A DNA stretch of 64,000 nucleotides from Chaetoderma sp. LZ-2023a. Its lineage: Eukaryota > Mollusca > Caudofoveata > Chaetodermatida > Chaetodermatidae. The notes below the pieces were generated by a model. It worked only from the letters and a program-made list of their open reading frames with translations, ran no database searches and was not told the DNA's origin. Positions 22,901 to 63,761 of this stretch are shown here, piece after piece. The stretch is from NCBI GenBank assembly GCA_034401795.1, contig CM067369.1:188502742-188566741 (forward strand), read 5' to 3'. The first letter of the stretch is position 1. The number at the start of each line of letters is the position of its first letter. Made by a program: the position numbers and the translations under genes.

Positions 22901-25900
22901 TTTGGATAAAATCCATCAAGCGGTCATGGAGATGCGCTTTGACAATTTCCGGTAAATTTTTCATAAAATTTATCATTTTTACCACAAAATAAATCGACCC
23001 ATTAAAATTCTGAATGGAGGTTCTGGAGCCTACCATGATAGGATTGAAATCTGTCAAGCAGTTAATGATGAGTAGCACTTGACAATTTCTTATAAATTTT
23101 TCATAAAATCTAAGCTTTTCACCAAAAGGCTTGACTAGTCAAAATTCTGTAAACAAGTTCTGAAGCCTAACCACATAGGTTCCTTCCAGTCAAAGTAAGT
23201 TGAAATCCACTAAGTGGTTAATGAGGAGAAGCGTTTTGACAATTTCCGGTAAATTTTTCATAAAATCTAAGGTTTTCACCAAAAAACTTGACCAATCAAA
23301 ATTCTGTATACAAGTGCTGAAGTCTAGCCCAAATTCAAAAAAGCATCCGCTTTTGTTTCTACGAGAATTCTTAATACTTACCAGATGTACTATTATGATA
23401 ATGTCTATTATCTAGTCTAGCTCAAAATAAACAATTAAAACTCCGCACTCTCCTGGTCCTGCCCATACTGTGTCCGGGAATTACCATACCCCCAGGTACC
23501 GAGTCAATTCCCAATCACAGTCAGATTCGTCTTACATTTGCCTTGACAAACAGCGAAAGCAGCTCAGCCTCACCTCAGCGGGGCGGCTGAGGCAGGGCCA
23601 TAGTACATCTGGTAAGTATTAAGAATTCTCATAGAAACAAAAGCGGATGCTTTTTTGATTCTACTTCGAATAATACTTACCAGATGTACTATTGATAAAC
23701 TCCGGCTTTCGACAGCTAAGAAATACCGGTGGGATGAGGTGAGGCTCGAACCAGCACTCATCTACCATCCGACAGAGAAGGTTGTGAAGAGACTAGAAAC
23801 CTGGTATATGCTTGGGTTCCGCTATCTGACTCATAGAGTGCTAAACTTCCATGGTCTAGACCGATAAATTGGCGACGGCTACTGGATTAAGTGCGCTGGA
23901 GATATCGCGAAGGTAGAAATCAGTGAATGACGTCTCGGCATGTCATTGTGCTACAGACATCACCTCCTCTAATGAGACACCCTTATAAAGGGTCGATGCT
24001 GCAGCTAGTGCTCGGACCTGATGGGCATTCGCACCATCAATCTGCTTTCCTGTAGCGATTTTGTGCGACATCTGAATAGCATCGACTATCCAACGAGAAA
24101 TGGTATCTTTCGAGGCGCGCAAATGAGGAGCTTTGAGACATAACCAGAGAGATTTCGGGTCATCTCTCCACTCCTCAGTACGTTTCTTATACATTTTCAG
24201 ACATCTGACAGGACACCAAGCAGAAAAGTTTGGGTCGTCTAATTAAACTTGGCAAATTGGTCGGCTGTCCTGGATATTTAAGTGACTGATTCTTTGCCAG
24301 GAAACAAAGACGTGGAAGTAGTCCTAAACCTTCATCCGTGATGACAAAACAGTCTAGTTCGGCAGAAAGCGCATGTATTTCTCTTCTCCTTCTCGCTGAC
24401 GCTGCTGCAACCAAGAAAACTGATTTAATAGTTAACAGTTTAATATCTATAGATCTAATCGGTTCAAAGGGAGAATGCCCTAAAACCTGTAGAACAAGAG
24501 ATAGATTCCATGCTGGGATAGGAATTGGCTGTCTAGGTCGCAGATTCCTCATTCCTTTAATAACTTCATCTAAAGTGTCATTCTTAACTCCTTCAATGGC
24601 CAGACTGGGAATGACTGAAGCTAATGCAGACTTATATGCTGCTAGGTTTGAAGGTACAAGTTTGTCAACTTCGTATAAATGACAGATAAAAGCTGCTACG
24701 TGTTGAACAGATGCAGAAAAGGGATTAATATCTCTTCCCTTACACCACTCTGCAAATTTGTTGATTCTATAATTATATGTTTTAGTGGTTGACCCTCTTC
24801 TGGCTGAAGCAACAAACTTCGCTGCTTGCTCAGCAAAGCCACCCTTAATTGCACGCTGCTTGATAACATCCATGCAGTCAATTTGAACATTTCTGGTCTG
24901 TCGTGGAGATACAGACCTTGTTCTGAGAGATTAGATCTCTTCTGTCTGGAAGAGGGATTGGATTGCAGACCAGAAGGTCCAGCATATCCGTAAACCATGA
25001 TCGGCCTGGCCAATAAGGGGCGGTCAGTAGTACTTGGCACATACCCTCTCTTATCTTTGCCAGAACTTTTGGGATGAGAATCGTTGGAGGATACGCATAC
25101 ATGTACATTCCCTTCCAACTTATCACCAGTACGTCTACTGCTAGAGCTAGCGGGTCCGGGATCGGTGACACGTATGTGACCATCTTTGCGTTCTGTTTTA
25201 TCGCAAACAGGTCCACATTTGGCTTGCCCAATTGATTGAATAGAACCTCCGCTACCGATTGGTTGAGCTGCCACTCCGTCGGACGACAAACCGTCCTTCA
25301 ACTGAGAGTATCTGCTAAGATGTTCAGTCTTCCTAGAATGTGTGCTGCCCGAAGAATAACATTCCTCTCCTGGCACCACAGCAGAAGGTTCCAAATCATC
25401 ATACACAACTCCGGTGATCTCGTCCCGCCTTCGCGGTTCAAATAAGACACCACTGTTGAGTTGTCTGTCCTTACTAGGACAATCTTGTCTCGGATTAAGC
25501 TCTCAAATTTTCGAAGTGCTAATGCCACTGCTAATAATTCGAGAACATTGATATGTTTCTGCGCATTGGTCCGATCCCATTCCCACTGATCGTCCAATAT
25601 CGCTCCCCAACCCGTCGTTATTGCATCTGTGAAGATGGACATCTGTGGTTGAGGAGGTTGTAGAGGAACACCTCGCAGGAGATTCTGTTCTGATAACCAC
25701 CACTGAAGGTGGAATATCAATGGTTCTTTTACTGGAATTCTCAGAGATAACGGATCCATTCTCTTAGACCAGAATGACATTAGATACATCTGAATCGGCC
25801 TGTGCCTGAGTGCCGCATAAGGAACCACTTTCTCCAGAGACACTAGTAAACCCAGTATCCTGAGAAATTGGCACGCCGTCAGAAAGGCTCCTAGAGAAAC

Positions 25901-28900
25901 TGACTCCAATACTGCAATCAAACTCTTGACTCTGTTCTCCGCCGGAAAAGCTACGCCGTCCCTGAGGTTGAAAAATATTCCCAGATAAACAAACTCCTGG
26001 GACGGAGTCAATTCTGATTTCTCTAGATTCACTATCCATCCTAGGTCCTTTAGTATGGCTAGGACTACCTGAAGACTGTTGTGCAGAGTGATTGGATTCC
26101 CCACCTTCAGCAGCCAGTCGTCTATGTAAGTATGAACAGTTATGTTTCTCCTGCGAAGATAAGAAGTCATGGCGAGAACCACTTTGGTGAAGACCCTCAG
26201 TGCTGTGGTCAGACCGAACGGAAGCGCATTGAATTCCCAAACAAAAGGAATTGACATTGGAATATGAAAATATGCATCCTTCAGATCTATCGACACTGCC
26301 CACATGCCTTTTCTCAGCCCTGTCATCACCGCTGCTACAGTCCCCATCTGAAACTTTGGAGAAAAAATAAATTTGGTTAACGGTTTTAGATTGAGAATTG
26401 GTCGCCAACCTCCGGTATGTTTCGGAACGAGGAATATCATCGAATAGAAGCCTAGGGAGGACTAGATGAATCGCGTTCTTCCGCTGAAGCAAATGGCATC
26501 TAGATGATCGGATTCCCATGGAACGGGAGTCCACACTGGAGTCGATGTTAACGGAACTAACGATTGACGGTTCGTAGCCATTTCTTAACCACTGACAGAC
26601 TAAACAATCTCGCACGACCCGTTCCCATTGGCTTGAGAACAGTTGAAGTCTGCCTCCGACGGTAGGAATCTGCACACAGCTGGCGGTCGATATTGCACGA
26701 TAAGACGCTAAACCGCTTGGGTGAAGATTCTCGACTCCCTTCATTCCTGATGTCACCGGAACTGATCCCGCCAGAAACCCGTCAGGACCAACCTCCACGG
26801 CCGCCCCGCGGTTTCTTGGAGTATGACGGTCCAGGACCGCCGCCACGACTATCCTTATGATAACCGCCGCGACCCAAACCGCCACACTTCCTATCCTCCT
26901 CATACGGCCTCTTATTAGAGGACTTGTATGAGGACGAACGGCCAGGTCCCTGTGATCCGGATGCCCGATGGGCATCACAGCCAGAAGGACGGAAGGGCGA
27001 TCTCTGGCGCTGCCTCTGTTGCTCCTGCCGATGCTGCTTGTAGGACTGCTGCGGCTGTGTCCTCTTAGTCGACTTCCACAACTTGCCGACTACTTCCCGC
27101 TCTGCGACTATTGATGCGACCTTGGATAAAGCTTGCCATGCCGAGCCGCCGAACAAGCCTGGACCAATGAAAGGCACAGAAGATAACGCAGCCCTCATCT
27201 CAGGTCCGGGTTCTACGCCAATCGAGAACCATTCGCCTGCGCTCCGCCAATGATCTGGTGATCACCCTGGCCAGGCAATCCTGGGACAAGCGCATGGTGT
27301 CCCGGACAACTCCGGGAGCAGACTCTGGCACTTCCCCACCTTCCGCGACGCAGGTCAGCATACCCTGCAGGACAGTACATCCGTGCGAGAGTGCAGCCAT
27401 GGGACTCACCACCCACCTGGCAAACCCGTACAAAACCTGAAGGAGATCCCTGGGATGTACCTGGTTGTGCCGTTAACGAAATATCTGGTATGCCGGAATC
27501 TTCCATAAGCAGATCTTCCTCCTCCGCCGTCGGCTCTTGAGCCAAGGTCAGAGAAGGGACAGGTGCTTGTCCCTCCGCAGAACTAGCCGGACCACCGAAA
27601 GGTTGCCCTGCACCAGCCTGCATCGTGGACTGCAAAGACTCAAACATTGCCTTAAACTGGGCCGCCCATACGCCCAATGCTGGGTCCATCCGCTCGTTCA
27701 GATGCTCATCAAGACCCTTTACTGATGCCTGATCTAGCTTGGCCGCCTTGTCCCTCACGATTCTCTCCAAACGCGCACGTCGATCACGATGGAACTCTGC
27801 CACCAACTCCGACGACCACTTCGCGCACACGTTACAAGGACTTCCCACTTTGTACTTCGTGCAAGCCACACAGTGATGACCACTGAACTTGCGTTTCATG
27901 AGCCTGTTACACTTTTGACACAGAGTGTCCAGGTTCTTGGTCTTCTGCGAACACAGAGTAAGAATTAAAATGCTGCACATGACATATGACGACAAGCAAT
28001 ACGCACAATTGACTTGATTGTAAGATAGAATTACTTAGAAACAACTTTCTCTTAAATTAATGATAATCAAGCCTTTAGGCAGGAAATATTTGAAACTTTT
28101 TAGAGTGAAATTTAATAAACACAACTTGGTAATTAACTAACGTTAATAAAGCTGAAAAATAAATGCCCGATCGCTACAAACACCCTCGACAATCAAGCGA
28201 GAGCTAAAAACTGGCATCAAAACGAGTGCATAGACATGCCAAACCATAAGATAACAATGATCAAGGACGCCGCCATCTTGGCTAAGGGCGCATCCATCTT
28301 GGAAGGAACGGAGTCACAAGAGAAATTAACCGAGTAACCGGATAAGATTAAACAGTTAACGAGTACTGGAGCGACTCCAACAATGGCTACCATTTTAAAA
28401 TAATGTGCCAATTTAAGAAATTTTCAATCAGTCATTACGGCATGAATGTATAAATTCTAGATTGATACAACCTGCCCCTGTGATGACTTTCCTTTTCTTT
28501 CCATGATGCCAGCAACGAATTAGCGAGAGCACGCGTAAATCTGAAAATTCGAGCAAATTTTAAACTAGAAAAAATATGCAACTTTCCAAAATAAGCAAAT
28601 CTGACTGTGATTGGGAATTGACTCGGTACCTGGGGCTATGGTAATTCCCAGACACAGTATGGCCAGGACCAGGAGAGTGCGGAGTTTTTAATTGTTTATT
28701 TTGAGCTAGACTAGATAATAGGCATTATCATAATAGTACATCTGGTAAGTATTATTCGAAGTAGAAATGGTTCTTCCAGCCACAGTAATTTGAAATCTGC
28801 CAAGCGCTTAAAGAGGCGTTGCATTTTGACATTTTCCGTTAAATTTTTCATAAAATTAAAGCTTTTCACACAAAAAAATGGAACAATCAAAATTCTGTAT

Positions 28901-33000: not shown

Positions 33001-36000
33001 ATATGGCCGCCAAACATGCTATATTTTGATTGGCCCACGGGGGCCATGTTTTTTGACGGATCAAGTTCTCTTGAACAAACTTTACTGGCCCTTAGTCCCT
33101 AATCATATCTGCCAAATTTCGGCCTGATCCCTTCAGCGGTTCTGGAGAATTTTTTTCGCAAAAACTAGGTCAACCAAGATGGCCTCCAAATTATTTGACC
33201 AATTAAGTTCCCTTGAACAAATTTGGTTGAGCTCTTGCCCTAGATCATATTTCATCAGGTTTCCTTCAATCCCTCAAGTGGTTTCGGAGAAGATTTTTAG
33301 ACGTTTCTAAAAATCGGTCAAAATCCAAGATGGCTACCGGCCTAATTGGCCAATTGGCTTCATTTGAACAAACTTGAGTCTACCGTTGCAATAGATGATG
33401 TGTTATGAGTTTTGAATCAATTTCTCCAGCGGTTTCGGAGACTTTTTAAAGGGTTTCTAAAAATCAGCTATTTTGGCCGACGGCCATCTTGGATTTTGGC
33501 CGATTGGCTTCATTTGAACAAACTTGAACCTCTATTCCCTAGGGATGCTTCCTGCCAAATATAATTGAAATCGGCCCAGTGGTTCTTGAGAAGAAGTCAT
33601 TTTAAAGGAAAAGTTGACGGACGGACGGATGACGGACGGTCGCCACGACATAAGCTCACTTGGCCTTTCAGGCCAGGTGAGCTAAAAAATAATCTCTTGG
33701 CATGCTGGGTCTGTAAATGGACATTTTCAATGGGAAAACCAGTTTTCTTGAATAAATTTGAGGGTTAAAGCTGAAGTGACATTCAAATAGTCAATACTAA
33801 CCAAAACTAGTAACATAATGGTACAAATGCATATCTGTTTTTTTCTGAAAATACCTGTTAGAATTCAGGCTACTGATACGTTGAACAGATTCAGATAATA
33901 TTCCCCATGAGATACATTAAGCATCTCAGTCCTCTTCCAATTTAGTACCAAAATTAATGACCAAGTTTAGTCCCGGCAATAATTTGATGAAACCATTATT
34001 TCCAGAGAAGCTACTCTCAATGTTAGCATAAATTGTAGAAGAAAAAATATTTTAATTTTGATTTTAAAGGTTCACACCAAAATGCTTGAAAATAAAATTG
34101 TTAAAATTGTATACATGTACTTTTGGAAGCTTAAATTGTGAACCTAAATGTAATGAAACGAAATAAATCTTAACATATAATGGTTTCGTTCCTTAGAAAT
34201 TAATAATTTTTTTGTTGTGAATTTGAATTAAGGACATGTGCCTCTAATTCAATGTCACAACGTAAAAGTTATATTAATTTATGTATAATGAAATCATCAT
34301 ATGTTAGTGTTTATTTCATTTCTTTACATACAGACACCCAATTTAAGCGTCATCAGCGTCTAAAAGTATATAATTTTGAGTTTTATTTTTGAAGCAATTT
34401 GGTGTGAATATGCACCTTTAAATTTAAATCTTATACTTACCCAGTTTTGCATCAATGACAATATTTGGCTGAAATACAATCCAATTCGGCGAATATATGA
34501 ATGTTAAGGAAGCAGTAGATTATACATGTGTGGTTTTATAGCTTTATCAAAACTACAGCAACTACGATCTTTCAGTACTCTAGTACAAACAAATACATAT
34601 TTTATCTCAAGTTTGAGCGGCGAGACAAACTTCCACTCTGCTAACCAGACTTAGTAGTTAATATTACGTCAAATGTCGGGTAATTAGGTGACATCATCAG
34701 ACAATGATGTCTAGATACTCTGAATTATGCGAATCATGCAATATGTTCCTAGTGTTTTCATGTAATAATTGTATGCTTCTAAAGTCCATATACATATAAT
34801 ATTACATTATTACAATACAACAGCCATTTTATTGAACCACAGACCAGAACACTAGAGGCCTGAATCTGTGCATGTCAAGCCGTCGGGACATTTTGAAAAA
34901 CATTAACATTCTACCTACTAGACAGAACCATTTCTAGCTTTGCCCCATATTTCTAGATATGACCCACACATTTCTAGCTCTGCCCCACACATTTCTAGCT
35001 ATGACTCATACATTTGCAGCTATGACCCACACATTTCTAACTATGACCCACACATGTTTAGCTATGATCCACACATGTTTAGCTATGACCCACACGTTTA
35101 CAGCTTTGACCCACACATTTCTAGTTATGAGCCCCACGTTTCTAGCCATTACCCACACATTTCTAGCTTTGACCCACATATTTCTATGCCCCACACATTT
35201 ATAGCTATGACACACTTCTAGCGATGACCCACACATTTCTAGCTATGCCCCACCCATTTCTACCTATTCCCCACACATTTCTAGCTATGCACCACCCATT
35301 TCTAGCTATGCCCCACACATTTCTATCTATGTCCCTCCCATTTCTAGCTATGCCCCACCCATTTCTAGCTAGGCCTTGCCCATTTCTAGCTATGCCCCAC
35401 ACATTTCTAGCTATGATCCACACATTTCTAGCTATGCCCCATACATTTCTAGCTATGTCCCGTCCATTTCTAGATATGCTGCTCCCACATTGTATGCTCT
35501 TTTGAGTCGAATAGAATTCCTAGAATCGCAATTTCAAAGTAACTGTTACTGTAAGCTGGTGAATATTTTGAAACTAATTTGACTGAGAGCTGCTGCAGCC
35601 AATGGAATAGAATTCCCTGAACCTCAATTTCAGGATAACCGTACCAGTAAGCTGTTGATTATTTAGAAACTAATTTGACTGACAGCTCCCAGTCAGTTTA
35701 GTTTCTAAATATTCAACAGAATGTCTATTAAATTGTAAATTCACTAAGGACGTACAATTCAAATGGCTACTTGCTCCTTTCCAGACAGACCTACATCAGT
35801 TGTTTGTGATGTCAGCTAACATGTTATGCATTTTGTCAGATACTCGAGTGACAGATCAGATCCCTCCATTCTTGGATGCAGGATGGCATTCGGATCACTA
35901 AGCCAAGCCATCCTCCATTTTGTTGATAAAAATGTATACATATTTCGCTTAATTGAAGCCTATGCTCTAACAGAAGACCACCCCATAACTTTGATATATG

Positions 36001-48000: not shown

Positions 48001-51000
48001 ATAGTAGTGATTTGGATAGGTACGTATTCCGAGTTTTTTACTCATATAAAATGAACAGGACCCATAGAACTCACACTAGCTGGGTCTTGAGGATCCCGAA
48101 AAAAATTAGGAATCAATAATCGAAGATCAGTATATGTATGTCTAAATTTAATAGATTTCCTATTTTTAATTCGTGAAAACAAAGTTTAGTGGCATACATA
48201 ATTGCATAATTGTGCTAAGTTCCCAGAAATTTGTGAATGCAGTGAATTTGCAACCAGGACATGATCAAAATTTACAGCCTCGAACCTCTCGCGGAATTCT
48301 CGGAAATCACAAGATTTTGCATTTATTGTCGTATTATGTAGTACAGGGACCATCAAAATTCATTCTCATACCTGAAGACGAATCGGGATAGACTCAGTTT
48401 TAGCTTCTGGTTAAAAGAATAGTACAGATTGCAATTTGACTCGGGATGCAGAAATTTACAATGAAATTTTCGATTCCTTGTCAGGCTGCAATCCATAAGT
48501 TTGTATTAATTAGACAAGTTAGAATTGGCAAATCAAACTCTGGGGCGGTAATTTGAATTATCTCAAATGTGCGTGAAATGTAAAAAAATTAATGTGTACT
48601 CTTGTCATCTGCTATACATGTAGATGAATATGCCATCAAGAAATTTAAGCATATTGTGGGACAGCAGAATGAGTGACTCACTGGCAGTGTCACTTGTAGG
48701 TAATTAATTAATTGCTTGAATGTGCCTGTTCAAGAGTCACTGAGTGAAGACATGGAATTAGTTAACTCTTAAGTTTACAGCTTTATCAACAATGTTATCA
48801 TACATTGAAATGCCACTATTACTAAATAATAAATCAAAATGTTAAAGTTTATGTTACAATTATGTATGTGTCCTTTCGTTATTAAGGACATTTATCGTAA
48901 ATGGATATTTCACTTAATGTTTTTTAACATAATCCATAGAAAACCCAATTAAATTTCTCAGGGGCCCATTCACCTAGTTACTCCTGAGTCTCTGGGACGC
49001 TTTCATTACAAACCTATCCAAATCACTGGTTAGTGCATCATTGGAAATTATGCTGTCTGGCCATCGGCGTCCAGTGCCGGTGCGTAGGTGTTTGCGATGG
49101 CAGGCATCAAGTCTTTCTACAGCTGCCTTTGGAGCTGCCCAGCTGTTACCGTTATACAGCATCAAGGATACACAGGTTGCATTGAATAAACGTAGCTTTT
49201 TTGTCAAGGGCATCTTTGAACAACAAATCCATAGCTTCCAGAAGAACTGGAAGGCTATGTTCCCCATGATGCAGCATGCAGAAATGTCAGCAGCACAGGA
49301 TTTTACTTTTCCTCCATGGTTCGCCACCACGAAGTGGATCGTCATTTTCTTTAGTTGTTCATGCTTTGTAGATAGGTATGTGTGGGTGAATTCTGTTTTC
49401 GATTCATTCATAAAGATTCTCAATTTTTAATTTGCTTGCAGCTATTGGGAGAAGTTAGTCAAGGTCTTCTCCCACAAGGGTTTCAATGCAGTAGCAAGGT
49501 AACATGCGAAAAGCACAGAGGATAGACCATCATCCTGTGGGTAGCCGATTGATGTCTCAAACTCTACAGACTTCACTGACTTGACTCATACTCTCAGCTT
49601 GGTATCTGCACGCAGTAGTCTCACTAGTCATAGTTAATGATGTCGGAAAATTTTCCGGAAAGTTACCCAGACATTTGTATCTGAAACTTCATTTCCTATC
49701 TCATTGCGTAAATTGTATTATTTATTCTTAGAATTATTTTTAACGTATCACTAATTAATAGAAAACGTGCACCAGCAACATGTTTTATGTTAATACTAAT
49801 ACTCCATGAGTCCAATACTTGTTGGGGATTAAAAGAGTTGATCATACTGAATTGTAGAACCAGGTGTGACATACTTTTGCTACATTACATATGATTAAAC
49901 CTAACAATGCATGTATACATGTACACCAAGGTTGATAAATTAATATTCTGTTGAATATTTTGAAACTAATTTGACTGGGAGCGGCTGCTGCAGCAACAGC
50001 TTCCAGTTAAATTAGTTTCAAAATATTCAACAGTTTACCTGTATCATTGTCTTGAAATTCAGTTTTCTGGAACTGTAGCATTAAAAGGGTTAATAATGCT
50101 TACAGGGCCTACACGTAAGACAGCAACAACTTTCAGTCAAATTGTTTTTAAAATGCACACCAGTCTTTCTTCTACTAGTTCTTTAAAACTGGATTTCTGA
50201 CCACCAGCTTTCATTCCAGCAGCTCTTTAACGATTTACATTTATCACTAAATATTTTGTAATTTGATATATACACCTGTGCAAAAGTTAAGCACCACCCT
50301 ATTTTTACGCACATGCGAGGGTATATTCATGTGCTATGAAGAAAGCAATAGCATAAACATTTATGTACCCATCCATCTTAGTGCAAGAGGTAATAATGCA
50401 ACTAGAGGAATGCTGATTATGATGGTGGGGAAACACTGTATGTTTTTGTTTGAACTTGAAAACGAGGCCTGAATATGGTTACATTGACACAACTGACAAC
50501 TATTGCCCTACAGTTGACACACGTGGCTAGATTGTCATTAATGGTGTCTGAAAACGAAGTTTAACATCTGTGCACGAGTTTGAGACTGTCATTATTAATA
50601 CCGGGTATATCCACCTTGTGCCAGGATGACGGCCTGGACACGACGTCTCATGCTGGTCACCAACCGACTGATACGCCATTGTGGTATTCGTTGCCATTCA
50701 AGATGGAGTGCGTCTGTTAATTCCTGTAGGTTCTGCACAGGAGGATCCCTCCTTCTCACCATGTTTCCCAGAATGTCCCAGATATGCTCAATAGGGTTCA
50801 TGTCAGGGCTCCTTGCTGGCCATGGTAGGGTTTCGATGGCATTCTGGCGGAGGTATTCATGCACAGCTCTAGCACGATGTGGTCGGGCGTTGTCATCCAT
50901 GAATATGGGGTGGGTTCCAGGTGGATGATTTACAAAATGAGGGACCACAACTCTATCCAGTATGGAATCTTGATATCTTTGTCCATTTAGTGTTCCAGGT

Positions 51001-54000
51001 ACAGTCAACAGATCCAGCTTACAATCAAATGAGATGCACCCCCACATCATAACAGAACCTCCACCAAATGGAACTTCTTCCATGATGTTACGTTGGTCGT
51101 ACGCCGTGCGTCTGGACCTCCATACACGAGTTCGACCATCTGTGGCATGAAGCAGGAACCGACTTTCATCGGACCAGTGTACCCGTCTCCAGGATCTCAT
51201 GTTCCAGTGTCTTCTTTCGTTGCACCACCTCAGACGCTCCTCTTTGTGGTGTGCAGTGAGGAGAGGACGTCTGACAGGTCTGCCAGCAGCATACAGTCTC
51301 CTTTTGACGGTAGACATTGACACTCTATTGTGCGTTTCCCATTGCTGGCTGAGCACTCTGCTGTTGGTGAATGGAGATCTCCTAACAAGGCGTACTAGGG
51401 CTCGATCATCACGGGCAGTAGTCTTCTTCGGTCTTCCAGATCTAGGCCTGTCGTTCACCTCGTTAGTTTGCCCATGTTTTGCAATCAAACGACTGATTAC
51501 AGTATGGTTAATGTTCAGCTGTCTGCCAATCTCTCTGCATGACATACCAGTGGTATGCATGCCTATGATTTGCCATTTCACACGATCACTTAACCTTCGT
51601 CTTGCCATAGCGATTCACAATCAAGAGCTAATTCTCTCTGTACAAATAAACCACGGTCATGAACACAAAATTCCTAATCTTGTCACCTAAATCTGTATGT
51701 AATGTTCTACACCTCAAACTGGACTTTTACATAACTGAACACGTGTGCTGTTTCCCGCCATGCACGGACATCAAGCGGCGTGAAGTCATGCATGCATGTG
51801 CATTTCGTACTTGGAATTATGTCAGCTAACGCGGGGACAAAAAGTATGGCAGCCTAGTTGTACCATCATGTTTCTACGTTCTATTGTTTTTGCTGGTGCT
51901 TAACTTTTGCACAGGTGTATATATGCACATGATGTTGTTTGTTCAACTTGAAAAGAATAATTCTAATTAAGTATTTAACTTGTTCCCTTTAAACAAATAC
52001 AAAAACTACATCTAAGACATAAGTGGAAAATTTTCCAATTTTTCTGGAAAATTTTCTGGAAAATATTTTCCCAGAAAATTAACCTCATTGGTTGTAACTC
52101 ATCTTCATTGCAACTGTCCCGGCACAGTACATCTAGGATCTTTGAACCTTCAATTGTGTAACAGTACAACTCTGAAATATGTTTTCAAATCAAGCTAAAA
52201 TATACTGTTGAATATTTTGAACATAATTGTATTGGAAGACATCCTAAACCAGCAATGTCTTCTAATCTGATTAGGTTCAACATATACAACATAACATTTC
52301 TTCCTAACTAATGTTTCTGTGTTGTTTTGGAAATGTATTACATGTATGAGCTATCCTGTGCTTGAAATGAACTTTAAGTTGTTCAAATAAGATGTTACTA
52401 AATGTGTGTGATAAATTTGATATAAAATGGCAGTGAGTTTGAAATTGTATTTATCACATAAGCTACTATTTATAATAATCAGACGGTTTCTGGTCATTTT
52501 TTTGTCATTTTACATTATATGTTCATTATCTTTGTAGCCTTTCAACTAGACAAACACATTTTATTATTTCAGTTTTTTAACTATTTTAATTTGGTTCTTT
52601 AAATTTCTGAGCTTTCTTTTAAAATATCAAACTATTTCATTCTACAACATTTTAACCATTTAACCCTTTAACGCTCAAATTTCTTTTTAAATTTCAATTT
52701 TCTCACAGAAAATGTACATTTGCAGACAAAGAGAAGACTACAAGTATTGGAACCAATTTATATACTTTGAAACCTGAATTACCAGAATCCCAATTTCAAG
52801 CTAACTATACAGGAAAGATGTTGAATATTTTGAGATTAATTTGACTGGGTACTGTTGCTGCCGGTGGCAGAAACAGTTCTGAGGCAAATTAGTTTCAAAA
52901 TATTCAACAGAATGTTTATTAAATTGTAAATTCATCAAAAACATATAATTTGTTCAATAGACAGACTTTGATTATGAGTTATACCGTCAGATACATGTAT
53001 TTGAGCATCACATTCGATTCCTTAATATCGCCAGTATGTTACACTCAAAATACTTATAAAGGATTCAATCAATCCATCAAAGCAATAAGATGAAGATGTA
53101 GAAAGTGATTTTCAAGACGGCTACATAGCATCACCATCAGATTTTGATAACACATGCTATAACCTCATCCATCCACACATATGAAAGCAAATTTTTCTGA
53201 CGGCCAAATTGGACAAAAATAAGCTTAGTCTAAACCCAGCAAACATATAATATAATTTTAATCCTCAAATGTGTGAAGAATGATAGGAAATCTATTAGGC
53301 CCTTGATTAGTTAAATGTTGACTTCTAAGAAAATATTTTCAGAAAAGTTTTCCAGTTAAATTTAAAAACTTTACAAAACCTCATGGCCTAATATAAATAC
53401 TATGTGAAGAATTATGGAAATTACATAAGCCCATGTTGATTTTTAATATAATATATCCATTGAAAAATAAAAAAACTCACAGAAATAGGATTAATGTGTT
53501 TAAAGCATTTTCTTTATAATTCAGTCTGTTTACATAAATGTTGAATTTAAAACAAGTTTAGCATCTAGGTGATGGATAGATAGATAGGTAAAGCAGTGCT
53601 AAGCTATATCGACCAACCAATGTTTCCAAATCTGATTAATAATATTAACTCTGTGAAGCCTGAATTCTCAAAATTTGAATTTCAAGATAAGTATACTGGT
53701 AAACTGTTGAATATTTTGAAACTAATCTGACCGAAACTGGTCGCCGCCATAGGCACCAACAGCTCCCAGTCAAATTAGCTTTAAAATATTCAACAGAATA
53801 GTTTTTGCATTGAAAAGGATTTTTGATATTTTGTCTTTCGGGTTCAAAGGGTTAAAAACAGTTACATTGTGATTAAACAACATACAGTACAGCTCAGAAA
53901 TAACATAACATGTTTCCAAAAAAAAATAAAACTGTTGAGTATTTTGAACATTTCTTACTGACTAACATGTTTGTGTTTTTGTTTAGGAAACAAGTTAACT

Positions 54001-56227: not shown

Positions 56228-56966
56228 ATTATGCGCTTGAGTTGCGACTTTGTCTAACACAGAGCCACTGTCTGTGAGGGTAGTTCAACAGCCATTGGTC
56301 CTTGTTCGGCCATGTTCTTTGAATGCCAGAAAATATGCCTGCTTATAAGGCACTTATGACTTTGCAGTCGTAGGTGCCAAGAGGTACATGTATTAGGATC
56401 GCAAAGAACGCCACAACATCAACTTGCTAAGTGCTTTGCGATCAGATCTTAAAAAACGTAACCTAGGACCACTAAAGATAAAACCTAAAGGAACTTATGA
56501 CACGTAGCGTAGACAAGATACAGTACAGAAGGTTGAAAACAAACTGATCGATGAAAAAAAATTACACTTCTTCAGATGAAGAACACAGTCACTCATCATC
56601 ATCATCATCATCCCATATACTTTATGACTCTTATAGCTCAAACTACATTCTCAATTTCTGATCAATAAACATATGCATGTTTTTCAACCTACATGTTGTG
56701 TGTGCTAAGTTCTGGGATAGATCCATGATTTCTGGATTCAATGAAAAAATGGCATTTTTCAAGCTCCCAGAACAGAAGTGGCCAAAGGAAACACTGGTCT
56801 GACGGTTCTCCCTATTAGAATTCTGAAATCTATGTGCTCCCAGATGGCATTCTCCTATATGTTTAAAGGTGAACATCGACCATCAATTAGTTGTTAAATT
56901 AATCCATTTTTAACAATTTAAAGCTTCTTTTTTTCAAAGAATGTGGATGGGGTTGGGGTCAGAGAA
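56228..56966. other. RMC1 intron upstream of exon 1, no gene
   Basis: Searched for further RMC1 exons without success. Contains (CAT)n at 56,594-56,613 and an unsupported 77-codon frame at 56,643-56,876. Confidence 0.45.
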
Positions 56967-57006
56967 TCAAAAAAGCATCCGCTTTTGTTTCTACGAGAAT
57001 TCTTAA

Positions 57007-57163
57007 TACTTACCAGATGTACTATTATGATAATGTCTATTATCTAGTCTAGCTCAAAATAAACAATTAAAACTCCGCACTCTCCTGGTCCTGCCCATAC
57101 TGTGTCCGGGAATACCATAGCCGCAGGTACCGAGTCAATTCCCAATCACAGTCAGATTCGTCT
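57007..57163. repeat. DIRS copy B inverted terminal repeat (coding 3' end)
   Basis: TACTTACCAGATGTACTATT ... GTCAGATTCGTCT. By eye identical to the complement of 63,588-63,744. Preceded by the 3' extension TCAAAAAAGCATCCGCTTTT. Confidence 0.93.
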
Positions 57164-57231
57164 TATATTTGCCTTGGCAAACTGCGAAAGCAGCTCAGCC
57201 TCACCTCAGCGGGGCGGCTGAGGCAGGGCCA

Positions 57232-57333
57232 TAGTACATCTGGTAAGTATTAAGAATTCTCGTAGAAACAAAAGCGGATGCTTTTTTGATTCTACTTCGA
57301 ATAATACTTACCAGATGTACTATTATGATAAAC
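57232..57333. repeat. DIRS copy B internal complementary region
   Basis: TAGTACATCTGGTAAGTATT ... GCGGATGCTTTTTT (complement of the coding-3' terminus at 56,967-57,020) joined through GA to TTCTACTTCGAATAATACTT ... (complement of the coding-5' terminus at 63,730-63,761). The join shows the sequence of the circle junction. Confidence 0.93.
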
Positions 57334-57939
57334 TCCGGATTTCGACAGCCAGGAAATGCCGGTGGGAGGAGGTGAGGCTCGAACCAGCACTCACCAACCA
57401 TCCAACAGAGAAGGTTGTGAAGAGACTAAAACCCTGGCATACGCTTGGGTTCTGCTATCTGACTCATAGAGTGCTAAACTTCCATGGTCTAGACCGCGCT
57501 CCCCCCCCTCTTTTGTCCGCACAAAACCAGAGGGATGTCCATGGGGATGCAACACCCACCAGACCCGTGTCAGCCCCAAGTCTCAGCTAGGGCAGTCCAG
57601 TAGAGTGCAAAGAAGCTACTACAACTTCAATCTTTGAAAAAAACTATCAGTATATCGATTAGATTTTCAAATTGGAATGAGTCTCATGTCTGTATGAGAG
57701 GATAAATATACTCTTGTACCAGACTATTCACTTACTCAGTCTGGTATTTCGACTGGAAGTAAACATATTTATAGTCACTTAATTAATGTAAACACTCACC
57801 ATTTTTGAGTGGTCGATCTGTTCTTGATCATCACAGGAGCTAGGCCCAATCCACGGTCGTACTCAGTCATGTGCATAGCGCTTGGTCAGTGTAGGCGGAA
57901 GACTTTTGTGATGTGTGCGAAGTAGTGGTCGGACGTGGC
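57334..57939. other. DIRS copy B 3' untranslated region
   Basis: Non-coding region between the recombinase stop and the internal complementary region; about 460 bp of it (57,500-57,950) is missing from copy A. Short frames within it are unsupported. Confidence 0.6.
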
Positions 57940-58965
57940 TTAGTTTAGGTTTGACAGATTGGCGACGGCTACTGGATTAAGTGTGCTGGAGATGTCGCGA
58001 AGGTAGAAATCAGTGAATGACGACTCGGCATGCCATTGTGCTACAGACATCACCTGCTCTAATGAGACACCCTTATAAAGGGCCGATGATGCTGCTAGTG
58101 CTCGGACCTCATGGGCATTCGCACGATCAATCTGCTTTCCTGTAGCGATCTTGTGCGACATCTGAATAGCGTCAACTATCCAACGAGAAATAGTATCTTT
58201 CGAAGCACGTAAATGGGGAGCTTTGAGACATAACCACAGAGATTTCGGGTCGTCTCTCCACTCAGAAGTACGTTTCTTATACATCTTCAGACATCTGACA
58301 GGACACCAAGCACAAGAATTTGGGTCATGTCTAGTTAAACTTGGCAAATTGATCGGCTGTCCTGGATATTTAAGTGACTGATTCTTTGCCAGGAAACAAA
58401 GACGTGGAAGTAATCTTAAACCTTCACCCGTGACGACAAAACGGTCTTGTTCGGCAGAAAGCGCATGAATCTCGCTTCTCCTTCTCGCCGACGCTGCTGC
58501 AACCAAGAAAACTGATTTAATAGTTAACAGTTTAATGTCAATAGATCTAATCGGTTCAAAGGGAGCATGCCCTAAAACCTGTAGAACAAGAGATAGATTC
58601 CATGATGGGATAGGAATTGGCTGTCTGGGTCGCAGATTGCTCATTCCTTTGATAACTTCATTCAAGGTGTCATTCTCCACTCCCTCAATGGTGAGACTAG
58701 GAATGACTGAAGCTAATGCAGACTTATATGCTGCTAGGGTAGAAGGTACAAGTTTGTCAACTTCGTATAAATGACAGATAAAATCTGCTACGTGTTGAAC
58801 AGATGCAGAAAAGGGATCAATATCTCTTCTCTCACACCACTGTGCAAATTTGTTGATTCTATAATTATATGTCTTTGTGGTTGAAACTCTTCTGGCTGAA
58901 GCAACAAACTTCGCTGCTTGCTCAGAAAAGCCATCCTCAATTGCACGCTGCTTGACAACATCCAT
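57940..58965 (-). CDS. DIRS copy B tyrosine recombinase
   Basis: Integrates the circular cDNA by site-specific recombination. From the ATG at 58,963-58,965 (MDVVKQRAIEDGFSEQ) it is 341 residues. An N-terminal SAM-like DNA-binding region (KTYNYRINKFAQWCERRDID) is followed by the catalytic domain. The tetrad is visible: Arg near 163 (ASARRRSEIHAL), H285-xx-R288 (NAHEVRAL), W311 and Tyr321 (SSFTDFYLRD). A CxxC pair (CAWCPVRC) lies near 218-225. The frame is open far upstream, back to the gag stop at 60,958, so the expressed form may be longer; the 341-residue version is the part with homology. Copy A carries a frameshift and a stop here. Confidence 0.93.
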   Translation of the reverse strand: MDVVKQRAIEDGFSEQAAKFVASARRVSTTKTYNYRINKFAQWCERRDIDPFSASVQHVADFICHLYEVDKLVPSTLAAYKSALASVIPSLTIEGVENDTLNEVIKGMSNLRPRQPIPIPSWNLSLVLQVLGHAPFEPIRSIDIKLLTIKSVFLVAAASARRRSEIHALSAEQDRFVVTGEGLRLLPRLCFLAKNQSLKYPGQPINLPSLTRHDPNSCAWCPVRCLKMYKKRTSEWRDDPKSLWLCLKAPHLRASKDTISRWIVDAIQMSHKIATGKQIDRANAHEVRALAASSALYKGVSLEQVMSVAQWHAESSFTDFYLRDISSTLNPVAVANLSNLN

Positions 58966-61151
58966 GCAGTCAATTTGAACATTTCTGGTCTGTCGTGAAG
59001 GTACAGACCCTTGTTCTGAGAGATTACATCTCTTGTGTCTGGAAGAGGGATTGGACTGCAGACCAGAAGGTCCAGCAGATCCGTAAACCATGATCGGCCT
59101 GGCCAATAAGGGGCGATCAGTAGTACTTGGCACATCCCCTCTCTTATCTTTGCCAGAACTTTCGGGATGAGAATTGTTGGAGGATACGCATACGCGTACA
59201 TTCCCTTCCAACTTATCGCCAGTGCGTCTACTGCTAGAGCTAACGGGTCCGGGATCGGTGACACGTAAGTGACCATCTTTGCGTTTTGATTCATCGCAAA
59301 TAGGTCGACATTTGGCTTGCCCCATTGTTTGAATAGAACCTCCGCTACCACTTGGTTGAGCTGCCATTCCGTCGGACGACAAACCGTCCTTCGACTGAGA
59401 GCATCCGCTAAGATGTTCAATCTTCCTGGAATGTGTGCTGCCCGAAGAATAATATTCCTCTCTTGGCACCACAGCAGAAGGTTCCAAACCATCATACACA
59501 ACTCTGGTGATCTCGTCCCGCCTTGGCGGTTCAAATAAGACACCACTGTTGAGTTGTCTGTCCTTACTAGGACAATCTTGTCTTGAATTAGACTCTCGAA
59601 CTTCTGCAGTGCAAATACCACCGCTAATAGCTCGAGCACATTGATATGTTTCTGCGCATTGGTCCGATCCCATTCCCCTGACACTGACTGATTGTCCAAT
59701 ACCGCTCCCCAACCTGTCAATGATGCATCCGTGAATATGGACATCTGAGGTTGAGGAGGTTGTAGAGGAACACCTCGCAGGAGATTCTGTTCCGATAACC
59801 ACCACTGAAGGTGGAATATCAATGGTTCTTTTACTGGTATTCTCAGAGATAACGGATCTGTTCTCTGTGACCAGAACGACATCAAATACATCTGAATCGG
59901 CCTGCGCCTGAGTGCCGCATATGGCACCACCTTCTCCAGAGATACTAGCAAACCCAGTATTCTGAGAAATTGACGCGCCGTCAGATAGGCTCCTAGAGAA
60001 ACCGACTCCAACACTGCAATCAGGCTTCTGACTCTGCTCTCCGCCGGAAAAGCTACGCCGTCCCTGAGATTGAAAAAGATTCCCAGATAAACAAACTCCT
60101 GGGATGGAGTCAGTTCTGATTTCTCTAGATTCACAATCCATCCTAGCTTCTTTAACAAGTCTAGGACTACTATCAGATTGCTGCGCAGAGTGACTGGATT
60201 CCCCGCCTTTAGCAGCCAGTCGTCTATGTAAGTGTGAACAGCTATGTTTCTCCTGCGAAGTAAAGAAGTCATGGCGAGAACCACCTTGGTGAAGACCCTC
60301 GGAGCCGTGGTCAGGCCGAAGGGAAGAGCATTGAATTCCCAAACATTGTCTTGGAATGCAAATCGCAGGTACTTCTGAAAAGGAATTGACATTGGAATAT
60401 GAAAATAAGCATCCTTCAGATCTATCGATACCGCCCACATGCCTTTCCTCAGCCCTGTCATTACCGCTGCTACCGTCTCCATCTGAAATCTGGGAGAAAG
60501 AATAAATTTGTTCAACGGTTTGAGATTGAGAATTGGTCTCCACCCTCCGGTACGCTTCGGAACTAGGAACATGATCGAATAGAAGCCCAGCGATGACTGA
60601 TCGGTGACTAGGTGAATCGCATTCTTCTGACGAAGCGATTCTATCTCTGACTGAATGGCGACTAGACGGTCTAATTCCCTTGGAATAGGAGTCCATATTG
60701 GAGTCGAGGTTAACGGAACTAACGATTGATGGATGAGCCAGTCCGGATCGTAGCCGTTTCTTATCCACTGACAGACTAAACAGTCGCGCACGACCTGTTC
60801 CCATTGGTTTAGGAATAGCCGAAGTCTGCCTCCGACGGAAGGAATCTGCACACAGTTGTCGGTCGAGATTAGCCGACAAGACGCTAAATCGTTTGGGTGA
60901 AGATTCTCGACTCCATTTGTTTCCAAAGCCGCCGGTATTGGTTCCGCCGGAAACCCGTCAGGAACGAGCCCCACGGCCGCCCCGCGGCTTCTTGTGGTAT
61001 GACGGTCCGGAACCGCCGCCACGGCTATCCTTACGGTAGCCGCCTCGGCCCGAACCGCCACCCTTCCTGTCGTCCTCATACGGCCTCTTACTAGAGGGCT
61101 TGTATGCGGACGAACGGCCAGGCCCTTGTGCTCCGGATGGCCTATGGGCAT
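58788..61151 (-). CDS. DIRS copy B reverse transcriptase / RNase H / methyltransferase-like polyprotein
   Basis: Copies element RNA into DNA. The frame is open from 61,295, overlapping gag by ~340 bp; the first ATG is at 61,149-61,151 (MPIGHPEHKG). RT motifs: A SIDLKDAYFHI, B FNALPFGLTTAPRVFTK, C YIDD (60,220-60,231). RNase H: FTDASLTGWGA, ELLAV, VRTDNSTVVSYLNR, AHIPGRLNILADALS. The C-terminal tail PNVDLFAMNQNAKMV ... SISWKGMYAYAYPPTI-type segment (here AISWKGMYAYAYPP) and IAPYWPGRSWFTDLLDLL corresponds to the DAM-like N6-methyltransferase domain of DIRS1-type elements; its activity is unproven. The last ~180 bp overlap the recombinase frame. How it is translated after gag (frameshift or reinitiation) is not evident. 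Confidence 0.94.
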   Translation of the reverse strand: MPIGHPEHKGLAVRPHTSPLVRGRMRTTGRVAVRAEAATVRIAVAAVPDRHTTRSRGAAVGLVPDGFPAEPIPAALETNGVENLHPNDLASCRLISTDNCVQIPSVGGRLRLFLNQWEQVVRDCLVCQWIRNGYDPDWLIHQSLVPLTSTPIWTPIPRELDRLVAIQSEIESLRQKNAIHLVTDQSSLGFYSIMFLVPKRTGGWRPILNLKPLNKFILSPRFQMETVAAVMTGLRKGMWAVSIDLKDAYFHIPMSIPFQKYLRFAFQDNVWEFNALPFGLTTAPRVFTKVVLAMTSLLRRRNIAVHTYIDDWLLKAGNPVTLRSNLIVVLDLLKKLGWIVNLEKSELTPSQEFVYLGIFFNLRDGVAFPAESRVRSLIAVLESVSLGAYLTARQFLRILGLLVSLEKVVPYAALRRRPIQMYLMSFWSQRTDPLSLRIPVKEPLIFHLQWWLSEQNLLRGVPLQPPQPQMSIFTDASLTGWGAVLDNQSVSGEWDRTNAQKHINVLELLAVVFALQKFESLIQDKIVLVRTDNSTVVSYLNRQGGTRSPELCMMVWNLLLWCQERNIILRAAHIPGRLNILADALSRRTVCRPTEWQLNQVVAEVLFKQWGKPNVDLFAMNQNAKMVTYVSPIPDPLALAVDALAISWKGMYAYAYPPTILIPKVLAKIREGMCQVLLIAPYWPGRSWFTDLLDLLVCSPIPLPDTRDVISQNKGLYLHDRPEMFKLTAWMLSSSVQLRMAFLSKQRSLLLQPEEFQPQRHIIIESTNLHSGVREEILIPFLHLFNT

Positions 61152-62997
61152 CACGGGCAGAAGGACGGAAGGGCGATCTAGGACGCTGTCTCTGCTGCTC
61201 CTGCCTATGCTGACGGTAGGACTGTTGCGGCTGAGTCCTCTTGGTCGACTTCCACGACTTGCCGACCACTTCTTGCTCCGCCACCATTGACGCAACCTTA
61301 GAGAGCGCTTGTCGTGCCGAGCCGCCGAACAAGCCTGGACCTATGAAAGGCGCAGAAGATAACGCAGCCCTCATCTCTGGTCCTGGTTCCACACAATCGA
61401 GAACCATTCTCCGTCGCTCTGCCAAAGTTCTCGTGATTACCCTGGCCAGGCAATCCTGAGACAGGCGCATGGTGTCCCGAACAACTCCGGGAGCAGCCTC
61501 TGGCACCTGTCCGCCTTCCGCCGTGCAGTCCAGCATACCCTGCAAGACGGTACACCCGTGCGACAGCGCAGCCATGGCTGCCCTAGCCGCATCCTCAATG
61601 AGCGTAAGCTCATTGAACGGGTCTTTGTTGGTCTGAGAAACCAAAGGACGTGACCGCCCCTTGGCCTTCCCAGCCAACGGCCTATTCAGCGCCTCACGTT
61701 CCGGAACGGAAAGCCGTGGAACCCTGGCGTACTGATGATAAGCCTGCTCCGGAAACCGGACCCTACTCCTTATCCCCTTCGGGGCCTTGGGCAACGCATA
61801 GTCTGGCTGAACCAGACGGTATGCCGCAACTTCCAACATGTCAGAAGTTTGCGTGTCCAGCGGGAGTGTAGGCATGGCAGAAGAGCCACTGGACAGAGCG
61901 CTAGCCGCACGCTCTGACATCCGTTCCATCGCCGGATCGCGCTGAGATCCTAGATCAGATGCCAACCCGAGACGATTGGTCATCCATCCAAGAACCTGCA
62001 CCCATTCAGCTTCGGTGCAGAAAGCGGAATCGTCCATCAAAGAACTCCCGTTTTCATCCTCCCTCTCTCCCTTAGATGAGAGGGCCACCGACGATCCTTG
62101 CTGAACGCTACGATACACGTCTCTGCCAGGACAGAGCGCATCCATAGCGCGACTACCAGCGGCACCAGTATCCAACGAATCGCCAGATACGGATTCGCCG
62201 CAGTCCATCGGCTCCAACACGGGATCCGGGACTCCGACGGCCTCAATTACGGCTGGCACTGTCACTCCGATAGGAGCCGCACCTAACGCCGCCGGGATAG
62301 CCGCAGGAACCGCAAACCACGGCTCCGCCGGCATATCCGGTTGCACAAATCGCGGATGAAAAATGCCCGACGGAACGTCGACATCACCATCCGCCTGGCA
62401 AACCCGTACAAATCCCGAGGGCGACCCCTGGGACGTACTAGGCATCGCCGTCATTGAAAGATCCGGCATGCCGGAATCTTCCCTCAGCAGCAAATCTTCC
62501 TCCTCTATCGTCGGCTCTTGAGCCAAGGACAGAGAAGGGGCAGGTGCATGACCCTCAGCAGAACTAGCCGGACCACCTAATGGTTGTCCTGCACCAGCTT
62601 GCCTCACCGGGACCGTGGACTGCAACGAGTCAAACATAGCCTTGAACTGGGCCGCCCATACGCCCAGTGCTGAATCCATCCTCTCATTCAGCCGACCTTC
62701 CAGTCCCAGCAACGAAACCTGCTGCAGCTTCACTGCCTTATCCTTCTCGATACGCTCCAGCCTCGCCCGTCGATCCTTGTCAAACTCCGCCACCAATTCC
62801 GACGACCACTTGACGCACACATCACAAGGGCTCCCGACCTTACACTTAGCGCACGCCACACAGTGATGACCCAGGTACTTCCGTTTCATGAACCTGTTGC
62901 ACTTGCGGCACAACGAGTCCGAGTTCTTCGGTTTCTGCGAACACAGAGAAGAATTAAAACGCTGCACATGACAACCAATGACGAGCAATACGCACAA
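60958..62997 (-). CDS. DIRS copy B gag-like protein
   Basis: Presumed nucleocapsid-type RNA-binding protein. The open frame is 679 codons from a TTG. The extreme N-terminus may not be translated, because TTCTTCTCTGTGTTCGCAG at 62,940-62,958 looks like a splice acceptor just before KPKNSDSLCRKCN. A zinc-binding cluster follows (C30, C33, H45, C46, C49, C52, C58, C61: CRKCN, HHCVACAKC, CDVC). The middle is Pro/Ala/acidic (PAPSLSLAQEP, EEEDLLLREDSGMPDLS) and of low complexity. The tail (about 590-679) is Arg/Gly/Ser-rich (GGGSGRGGYRKDSRGGG). Ends in TGA followed by CGG; the same frame is then open for about 1,005 codons into the recombinase. Confidence 0.88.
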   Translation of the reverse strand: MCVLLVIGCHVQRFNSSLCSQKPKNSDSLCRKCNRFMKRKYLGHHCVACAKCKVGSPCDVCVKWSSELVAEFDKDRRARLERIEKDKAVKLQQVSLLGLEGRLNERMDSALGVWAAQFKAMFDSLQSTVPVRQAGAGQPLGGPASSAEGHAPAPSLSLAQEPTIEEEDLLLREDSGMPDLSMTAMPSTSQGSPSGFVRVCQADGDVDVPSGIFHPRFVQPDMPAEPWFAVPAAIPAALGAAPIGVTVPAVIEAVGVPDPVLEPMDCGESVSGDSLDTGAAGSRAMDALCPGRDVYRSVQQGSSVALSSKGEREDENGSSLMDDSAFCTEAEWVQVLGWMTNRLGLASDLGSQRDPAMERMSERAASALSSGSSAMPTLPLDTQTSDMLEVAAYRLVQPDYALPKAPKGIRSRVRFPEQAYHQYARVPRLSVPEREALNRPLAGKAKGRSRPLVSQTNKDPFNELTLIEDAARAAMAALSHGCTVLQGMLDCTAEGGQVPEAAPGVVRDTMRLSQDCLARVITRTLAERRRMVLDCVEPGPEMRAALSSAPFIGPGLFGGSARQALSKVASMVAEQEVVGKSWKSTKRTQPQQSYRQHRQEQQRQRPRSPFRPSARDAHRPSGAQGPGRSSAYKPSSKRPYEDDRKGGGSGRGGYRKDSRGGGSGPSYHKKPRGGRGARS

Positions 62998-63255
62998 TAG
63001 ACTTGCTAGTTAAGATTTCTTAAACACATTAACTTTCTCTCAATTTAATGATAACAAGTCTTAGGCAGGAAATATTTGAAACTTTTTTGAGTGAAAATTT
63101 TTTTTTAAAAACACAACTCAGCCTTTAACTAACGTTAAATAACCAAGAATAACTCGCCGATCACTACAAACACCCTCGACAACTAAGCGAGAGCTAAAAT
63201 CGGCGACAACAGAGTGCCTGGATACACCAAGCCAAGAACGACATAATTCATGGGC

Positions 63256-63268
63256 GCCGCCATCTTGG
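63256..63268 (-). promoter_or_regulatory. YY1-type site in the DIRS leader
   Basis: GCCGCCATCTTGG reads CCAAGATGGCGGC on the coding strand, the YY1 consensus. Copy A keeps the same 13 bases at 28,269-28,281, and each copy has a weaker second word (ATCCATCTT) nearby. A comparable YY1 site lies in the leader of mammalian L1; function here is inferred. Confidence 0.5.
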
Positions 63269-63587
63269 CCAAGGACGCATCCATCTTAGAGGAACCGAGT
63301 CGCAAGAGAAAATTAACCGAGTACCCGAATTAAAACTAAAAGTTAACGGGTACAGAAGCGACTCCAACAATGGCTATCATTATAAAAAATGTGCCAATTT
63401 AAGGAAATTTCAAACAGTCATTATGGCACGAATGTATAAATTCTAGATTGATACAACCTGCCCCTGTGATGATTTCCCAAGTTCCTCCATGAAGCCAGCG
63501 ATGGTTTCTCGAAAAAACACGCTAAACTAGCTTAATTCCAATTAATATAGAGAGCACAAAACACGCGACTTTCAATAAGCGCAAAAT

Positions 63588-63744
63588 AGACGAATCTGAC
63601 TGTGATTGGGAATTGACTCGGTACCTGCGGCTATGGTATTCCCGGACACAGTATGGGCAGGACCAGGAGAGTGCGGAGTTTTAATTGTTTATTTTGAGCT
63701 AGACTAGATAATAGACATTATCATAATAGTACATCTGGTAAGTA
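63588..63744. repeat. DIRS copy B inverted terminal repeat (coding 5' end)
   Basis: AGACGAATCTGACTGTGATT ... CTGGTAAGTA; inverted partner of 57,007-57,163. Followed by TTATTCGAAGTAGAA to the border at about 63,761. Confidence 0.93.
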
Positions 63745-63761
63745 TTATTCGAAGTAGAAAT

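Follow-up and report, generated by a model that had tools for sequence, protein, structure and literature searches.

A recently inserted DIRS1-like retrotransposon of Chaetoderma sp. LZ-2023a and the single UGA codon between its gag and recombinase frames

A stretch of 64,000 nucleotides from the caudofoveate mollusc Chaetoderma sp. LZ-2023a (assembly GCA_034401795.1, contig CM067369.1, positions 188,502,742 to 188,566,741; hereafter the window) was analysed for a mobile element near its end, here named copy B. Our analysis indicates that copy B is almost certainly a complete DIRS1-like tyrosine-recombinase retrotransposon that was inserted recently, and it is a new family within the known DIRS1-like superfamily. 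As mobile DNA it is of a common type; what merits further attention is the layout at its gag stop codon. The recombinase frame is gag's own frame, its sole interruption being one UGA, and pol lies in the +1 frame.

Comparison of insertion sites placed the ends of copy B at TTCTACTTCG... (63759) and ...GCTTTTTTGA (56967). The initial annotation, made from the letters of the window, had the latter end right and the former 2 bp too long (63761). It had described identical inverted terminal repeats (ITRs) of ~157 bp, and exact alignment found 160 of 160 positions identical. A match of an internal region to both termini was likewise borne out: positions 57231-57293 are complementary to 56963-57025, and positions 57290-57331 to 63718-63759. 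The centre of this internal complementary region (ICR) is the sequence expected from the right end ...GCTTTTTTGA joined to the left end TTCTACTTCG..., that is, a circle junction. Split direct repeats, which characterise PAT-like and Ngaro-like elements, were not found in copy B, whose long terminal repeats are inverted. The gag, pol and recombinase frames contain no internal stop, as had been proposed, and with termini, internal region and all three frames present the assignment to a complete DIRS1-type element stands. A 22-nt motif is common to both termini (63726-63747 and 57004-57025) and to the internal region (57231-57252 and 57302-57323); it holds a perfect splice-donor-like CTG/GTAAGTATTA (here and below a slash marks a putative boundary), which is directed outward at both ends of copy B.

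Analysis of the pol protein revealed Pfam matches above cut-off for reverse transcriptase (RT; RVT_1, 1e-22) and RNase H (RT_RNaseH, 5e-9). Its best solved-structure match was 4ol8 (2e-17, listed only as RT/RNase H), and Ty3-G Gag-Pol (7q5b, 4e-17) was among the best. The YIDD residues and the H-E-V-R...Y residues of the recombinase are present by eye. No integrase-core (DDE) family occurred among the Pfam matches of copy B up to E 1, and no Pfam family was found for gag.

The age of copy B was assessed in an alignment with 20 loci from the 2.44-Gb genome, chosen for recombinase similarity to copy B and hence not a random sample. At sites with at least 15 readable copies, copy B carries no private substitution, and the other rows carry 1-38 (locus L039 aside, whose 277 singletons reflect misalignment; it was excluded also from the shared and singleton variant counts below). 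Zero of 6,797 private sites gives an upper 95% bound of ~0.044% private change within this sample, selected as it was by recombinase similarity to copy B. The nearest listed relative differs at 21 of 6,792 sites (0.31%). Of the 16 copies with measurable ITRs, copy B included, 10 have no difference between the repeats, four have one and two have three; comparison was impossible elsewhere, since L039 is misaligned, L040 and L046 offered 0 columns, L048 10 and L031 no more than 67. Since nine of the 15 other measurable copies also show 0/160 differences, some of them with 28-38 private substitutions, a 160-bp ITR alone cannot date a copy. The conclusion that copy B is young, which had been drawn from its identical ITRs, was therefore retained on the better evidence of zero private substitutions in 6.8 kb.

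All three frames are kept without indel or stop in eight of the 21 aligned copies, and an in-frame gag deletion is the sole defect of two others. A recombinase query, in which the best candidates were scored, gave 121 scored matches at 98-100% identity; 118 of these are stop-free, and 14, copy B included, share the top score. The earlier statement that intact animal DIRS copies are uncommon does not hold for this genome. A genome search with the ITR had no match, an outcome without bearing on rarity because such a search passes over very common words. A degenerate RT motif (YIDDWL, found in six pol sequences) matched 26,979 times in 2.44 Gb, compared with five times for the reversed control; most of these matches are probably DIRS, and 19 further loci were read. 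On G000:C1, for example at 13.70-13.78 Mb, runs of RT-motif matches in the same orientation occur, many ~6.3-7.1 kb apart, which suggests clusters of DIRS copies.

Variants among the close copies carry signs of purifying selection. In gag (20 copies), variants shared by at least two copies comprise 36 synonymous and 19 nonsynonymous changes, compared with 32 and 68 for singletons (p ~9e-5). Where pol and recombinase overlap, changes nonsynonymous in both frames make up 3/25 shared variants vs 50/135 singletons (p 0.02), and pol-nonsynonymous changes 9/25 vs 82/135 (p 0.03). Recombinase-frame changes in this overlap are not depleted (19/25 shared vs 100/135 singletons; p 1.0).

Analysis of the flanks revealed a shared target context. 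These counts omit tandem junctions, internal junctions, duplicates and ends unrecognised by the pattern (e.g. L012). All 21 unique left flanks found pass straight into TTCTAC (TTCTACTT), and the bases before it are variable. The 27 unique right flanks found follow ...TTTTTTGA (TTTTTTTA in one); their third base is C in 25 (p ~8e-16 vs an assumed background of 0.2), the fourth A or T in 24, the fifth G in 19 and the sixth a pyrimidine in 23. Ten of the 27 start with TTC, the same three bases as the element start. A decayed relative of copy B within the window, copy A, is among the third-base exceptions. No general target duplication was seen by eye in paired flanks. Locus L043 is inserted inside another DIRS copy, so that its target, ..CCAA/TTCAGATG, can be read from copy B's own sequence there; this target shares TTC with the element end. 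The L043 target and the flank context fit recombinase-mediated joining via a very short core, as in the DIRS model set out in the available text of PMC3266345.

The circle junction also occurs outside the internal region. By sequence, locus L031 is a head-to-tail pair carrying the exact junction. Genome-wide, the junction pattern with up to two mismatches has 1,516 matches: four exact (the L031 pair included), eight with one mismatch and the rest with two. Two of the one-mismatch matches are of the tandem type and six are ambiguous; among the two-mismatch matches listed, all except one are of the internal (ICR) form. This number suggests ~1,500 copies in which the internal junction is intact.

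Several observations weigh against parts of this account. The recombinase matched the Pfam integrase SAM-like domain (4e-5) and Phage_integrase (0.037) in the expected order and below the curated cut-offs, and a match to an XerA-type NCBIfam family (0.0013) was below cut-off as well. A structure model of the recombinase failed (predicted local distance difference test score, pLDDT, 38) and did not confirm the tyrosine-recombinase fold. The Dam-like methyltransferase match in pol is weak (E 0.012; 15.8 bits vs a cut-off of 28.1). Head-to-tail copies can also be explained by one copy inserting beside another. Finally, choosing the comparison copies for recombinase similarity favours the sharing of copy B's variants.

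By analogy with the cycle of known DIRS1 elements, reverse transcription would act on a sense transcript that extends from the left terminal repeat to the right one, with the ICR providing the missing ends and bringing both termini together. The recombinase would then insert the resulting circle into the chromosome via a short core common to both, and no target duplication would arise. Transcription of copy B, circle formation and present activity are steps that we infer only. Direct support exists in copy B for the termini with their matching internal region, the junction sequence and the shared target context, and likewise for the head-to-tail pair with the predicted circle junction, for recency and for purifying selection, of which gag and pol show signs.

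The recombinase frame of copy B runs through its overlap with pol with no stop, compared with 30.6 +/- 4.1 expected and a minimum of 16 in 5,000 synonymous shuffles of pol. UGA CGG is kept in 20 of the 21 copies listed (L032 has UGA UGG) and in the diverged copy A. Further lineages were sought in 19 loci upstream of the RT motif, taken from among the first matches listed and picked for codon variety. Two lineages, with DNA 49-54% identical to copy B, have the same layout: L051/L064/L057, with GUU UGA AGG, and L061/L068, with GCC UGA UGG and UCC UGA CAG. In L051, L057, L061 and L068 a single UGA is followed by a stop-free frame, with 0 stops between UGA and the RT motif vs 5.4-11.0 expected; L064 has one extra stop. 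Shuffles as low as observed numbered 0/2,000 for copy B, L051, L057 and L061 and 1/2,000 for L068 and L064, an openness of the gag-to-recombinase frame well beyond chance. The UGA is also present in L067 (a relative of copy B) and L052 (a relative of L061), both decayed, and in L058, the sister of L057. A fourth lineage (L054, L056, L065) has ACC UGA followed by GGG or GGA. In L056 pol is in frame after the UGA, and the recombinase-type frame has two stops vs 7.9 expected (9/2,000 shuffles as low), which would allow a partial overlap in this locus. A sense codon occupies the gag-stop position in L060 and L062, and for several of the 19 loci (e.g. L053, L055, L059, L063, L066) either both frames contain stops or placement failed.

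Coding constraint was measured on both sides of the UGA as the ratio of nonsynonymous to synonymous change (dN/dS). Upstream of it, gag is constrained in all five pairs compared (0.19-0.33) while the pol frame is not (1.02-2.08), and variants in the gag/pol overlap are gag-silent in 20 cases vs pol-silent in five. In the RT part, pol has values of 0.11-0.39 and the recombinase frame 1.06-1.94 (the pair of copies B and A covers only 17-18 codons here). In the first 190 nt past the stop, the gag/recombinase frame has 0.29 and 0.40 in the pairs of copy B's lineage and 0.78-0.83 in the other three, and the pol frame 0.52-0.77 across the five pairs. The first AUG of copy B's recombinase frame lies 51 codons past the gag stop. 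Over the 50 codons after UGA, before any AUG, the gag/recombinase frame of this lineage has dN/dS of 0.34 vs copy A (p 0.0017) and 0.43 vs L067 (p 0.025), two tests that are not independent since copy A and L067 are related; the pol frame shows no clear constraint in the same codons (0.95 and 0.65). We tentatively read this as translation through the UGA in copy B's lineage.

How pol and the recombinase may be expressed was considered on these data. We favour, tentatively, recoding at the gag stop: low-frequency readthrough of UGA would give Gag-recombinase, and a +1 slip at or near the UGA would give Gag-Pol. Recoding would explain the recombinase/pol overlap, because both would be continuations of gag. 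It would agree with the stop-free layout in three lineages and with the constraint of the codons just past UGA in copy B's lineage, in the gag/recombinase frame and not in that of pol. In L057 and L061 the pol frame lacks any AUG in the interval from its last upstream stop to the RT core, so in these two pol does not start from an AUG upstream, and L058 shares the upstream pol-frame stop of L057; such AUGs are, however, present in copy B, L051, L064 and L068, which counts against recoding. So do the post-stop frame hardly constrained in the other lineages, pol without clear constraint just past the stop, and the fourth lineage, in which the UGA is in frame with pol instead.

UCC-UGA is the shift site of animal antizyme genes. 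Antizyme-type +1 frameshifting involves a shift codon followed by UGA and a product in the +1 frame; the DIRS copies have UCC, GCC or GUU before UGA and pol in +1. According to the available part of PMC5009743, two antizyme genes of yeasts carry UGA_C after the shift codon. The UGA CGG of copies B and A is the leaky context of type II readthrough as given in the accessible text of PMC11166343, which involves UGA with CGG or CUA, in many cases a downstream stem-loop, and a translated extension. Two further points weigh against recoding. The contexts in other lineages (UGA AGG, UGA UGG, UGA CAG) are less leaky, and no RNA structure was detected 3' of the stop in copy B (z +0.41) or copy A (+2.31), the strongest of nine values being -1.95 (L061). 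It is conceivable, if doubtful, that the gag UGA acts as a recoding hub at which termination gives Gag, +1 slippage Gag-Pol and readthrough Gag-recombinase.

Acceptor-like sites leave room for splicing, a serious rival that we rate somewhat below recoding: a short 5' exon would be spliced to one of several acceptors, for gag, pol or recombinase, and an exon of this kind would use the open frame past the gag stop. One acceptor-like site, GTGTTCGCAG/AAACCG, stands ahead of the first conserved gag codons. By eye, translation from an upstream ATG gives MEELGKSSQGQ to CAG/GTTGTA, in frame with the GTGTTCGCAG acceptor in copy B and, with two residues changed, in copy A. Another acceptor-like site, TGTGTGCAG/ATT, stands directly before the conserved pol start in copy B, copy A and L067 (also by eye). 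The putative donor CAG/GTTGTA is weak, however, and what corresponds to the pol acceptor in L051 and L057 does not agree, as judged from translations. Splicing moreover offers no reason for the openness of the recombinase frame from the gag stop onward, or for its constraint there in one lineage. An internal start of the recombinase, by re-initiation or a separate promoter with the stop-free overlap as a long N-terminal extension, would suit the position of its first AUG and the lack of amino-acid constraint on its frame over the RT part, and is improbable given the constraint ahead of that AUG in copy B's lineage and a frame that in three lineages stays open all the way to the gag stop.

Copy B was compared with known systems. 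In the available text of Piednoel et al. 2011 (PMC3266345), DIRS1-like elements likewise have ITRs, internal complementary regions with the circle junction, gag, a pol of RT, RNase H and methyltransferase-like parts, a recombinase and an extension on the right only; half of the 28 annotated elements, none of them in molluscs, have the long pol/recombinase overlap. Copy B differs in size (6,793 bp vs 3,974-6,283 bp), in starting with TTC where 23 of the 28 begin and end with NTT, and in having gag and recombinase as one frame split by UGA, a frame relation that goes unmentioned in that text. DIRS-1 of Dictyostelium discoideum, as described in the accessible part of PMC5633606, also has three partly overlapping open frames, inverted repeats and an internal complementary region, and it too inserts into its own copies; its circular cDNA has been observed. 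It differs in host and sequence. The DIRS elements of the caecilian Ichthyophis bannanicus resemble those studied here in mass expansion (26-30% of that genome) and recent activity, in another host, and no recoding layout is described in the available text of PMC8498967. Within the open-access literature (subscription papers were outside its scope) no account of pol and recombinase translation in DIRS elements was found; by title, none of the papers on DIRS with splicing concerns DIRS expression except a Dictyostelium review, and the accessible text of other DIRS papers mentions the overlap and no recoding. No DIRS relatives were found in viral or prokaryote contigs. The ~1,500 copies of this genome whose internal junction is nearly identical, together with its several distant lineages, make it possible to test directly how targets are chosen, how circles form and, most of all, how the overlapping DIRS genes are expressed.

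Table 1. Coordinates in the window of copy B, its parts and copy A.
Feature	Position	Strand	Remarks
Copy B, complete DIRS1-like retrotransposon, 6,793 bp	56967..63759	-	Ends from 21 left and 27 right unique flanks compared
Left terminus, 12 nt outside conserved repeat	63748..63759	-	Complementary to internal region
Left (5') inverted terminal repeat, 160 nt	63588..63747	-	100% complementary to 57004-57163
Candidate splice-acceptor-like site GTGTTCGCAG/A before first conserved gag codons	62934..62944	-	Placed by eye; letters same in copy A except after site
gag open frame, first ATG 62889, Cys/His-rich start	60958..63009	-	Last 100 codons constrained between related copies
gag stop UGA in UCC UGA CGG	60958..60960	-	Frame continues open into recombinase
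pol open frame (RT, RNase H, weak Dam-like methyltransferase)	58788..61340	-	+1 vs gag
Recombinase open frame, 1005 codons	57940..60957	-	Overlaps pol from gag stop to pol stop
Tyrosine recombinase domain region	57940..58965	-	Pfam and NCBIfam matches, all below cut-offs
Internal complementary regions and circle-junction sequence	57231..57331	-	Reverse complement of GCTTTTTTGA/TTCTACTTCG
Right (3') inverted terminal repeat, 160 nt	57004..57163	-	100% complementary to 63588-63747
Right terminus / right extension	56967..57003	-	Ends GCTTTTTTGA
Copy A, decayed relative of copy B	23335-28766	-	Two internal deletions

Copy A had been offered as a sibling that would serve as a built-in comparison. 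It is a relative distinct from copy B, decayed and with internal deletions; its identity to copy B is 80-88% over most of its length and 96% near the 3' end, and on this divergence its status as a sibling from the same burst was rejected. Over the first 1 kb the two copies are only ~80% alike, unlike the 43 nt at 63430-63472 (minus strand) in the 5' leader, a block around GGGGCAGGTTGTATCAATC that is identical in both. The leader also contains AAGATGGCGGCG (63255-63266, minus strand), found in copy A too up to about its last letter; we take it to resemble a YY1 site and regard it as a candidate promoter element.

The position of copy B inside a host intron, as first suggested, gained no support in a scan of 10 frames out of the 25 listed that reach 120 amino acids or more and overlap positions 1-56900, shorter exons being outside the scan. 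On one side of copy B the window extends for only 241 bp. Four of the 10 frames had a Pfam match at E 0.01, two of long interspersed nuclear element (LINE) type, one a Tc1-type transposase and one a DUF. The transposase is a Tc1/mariner-like frame of 339 stop-free codons at 50595-51614 (minus strand; DDE_3, 6e-12), with weaker helix-turn-helix and paired-box matches as well. Successive open frames at 500-2727, the first similar to DUF6589 (1.6e-6), are possibly a mobile element or an orphan gene. A 21-bp tandem array (CATTTCTAGCTATG...) of ~27 copies occupies 34929-35478, and related units occur elsewhere in the window.

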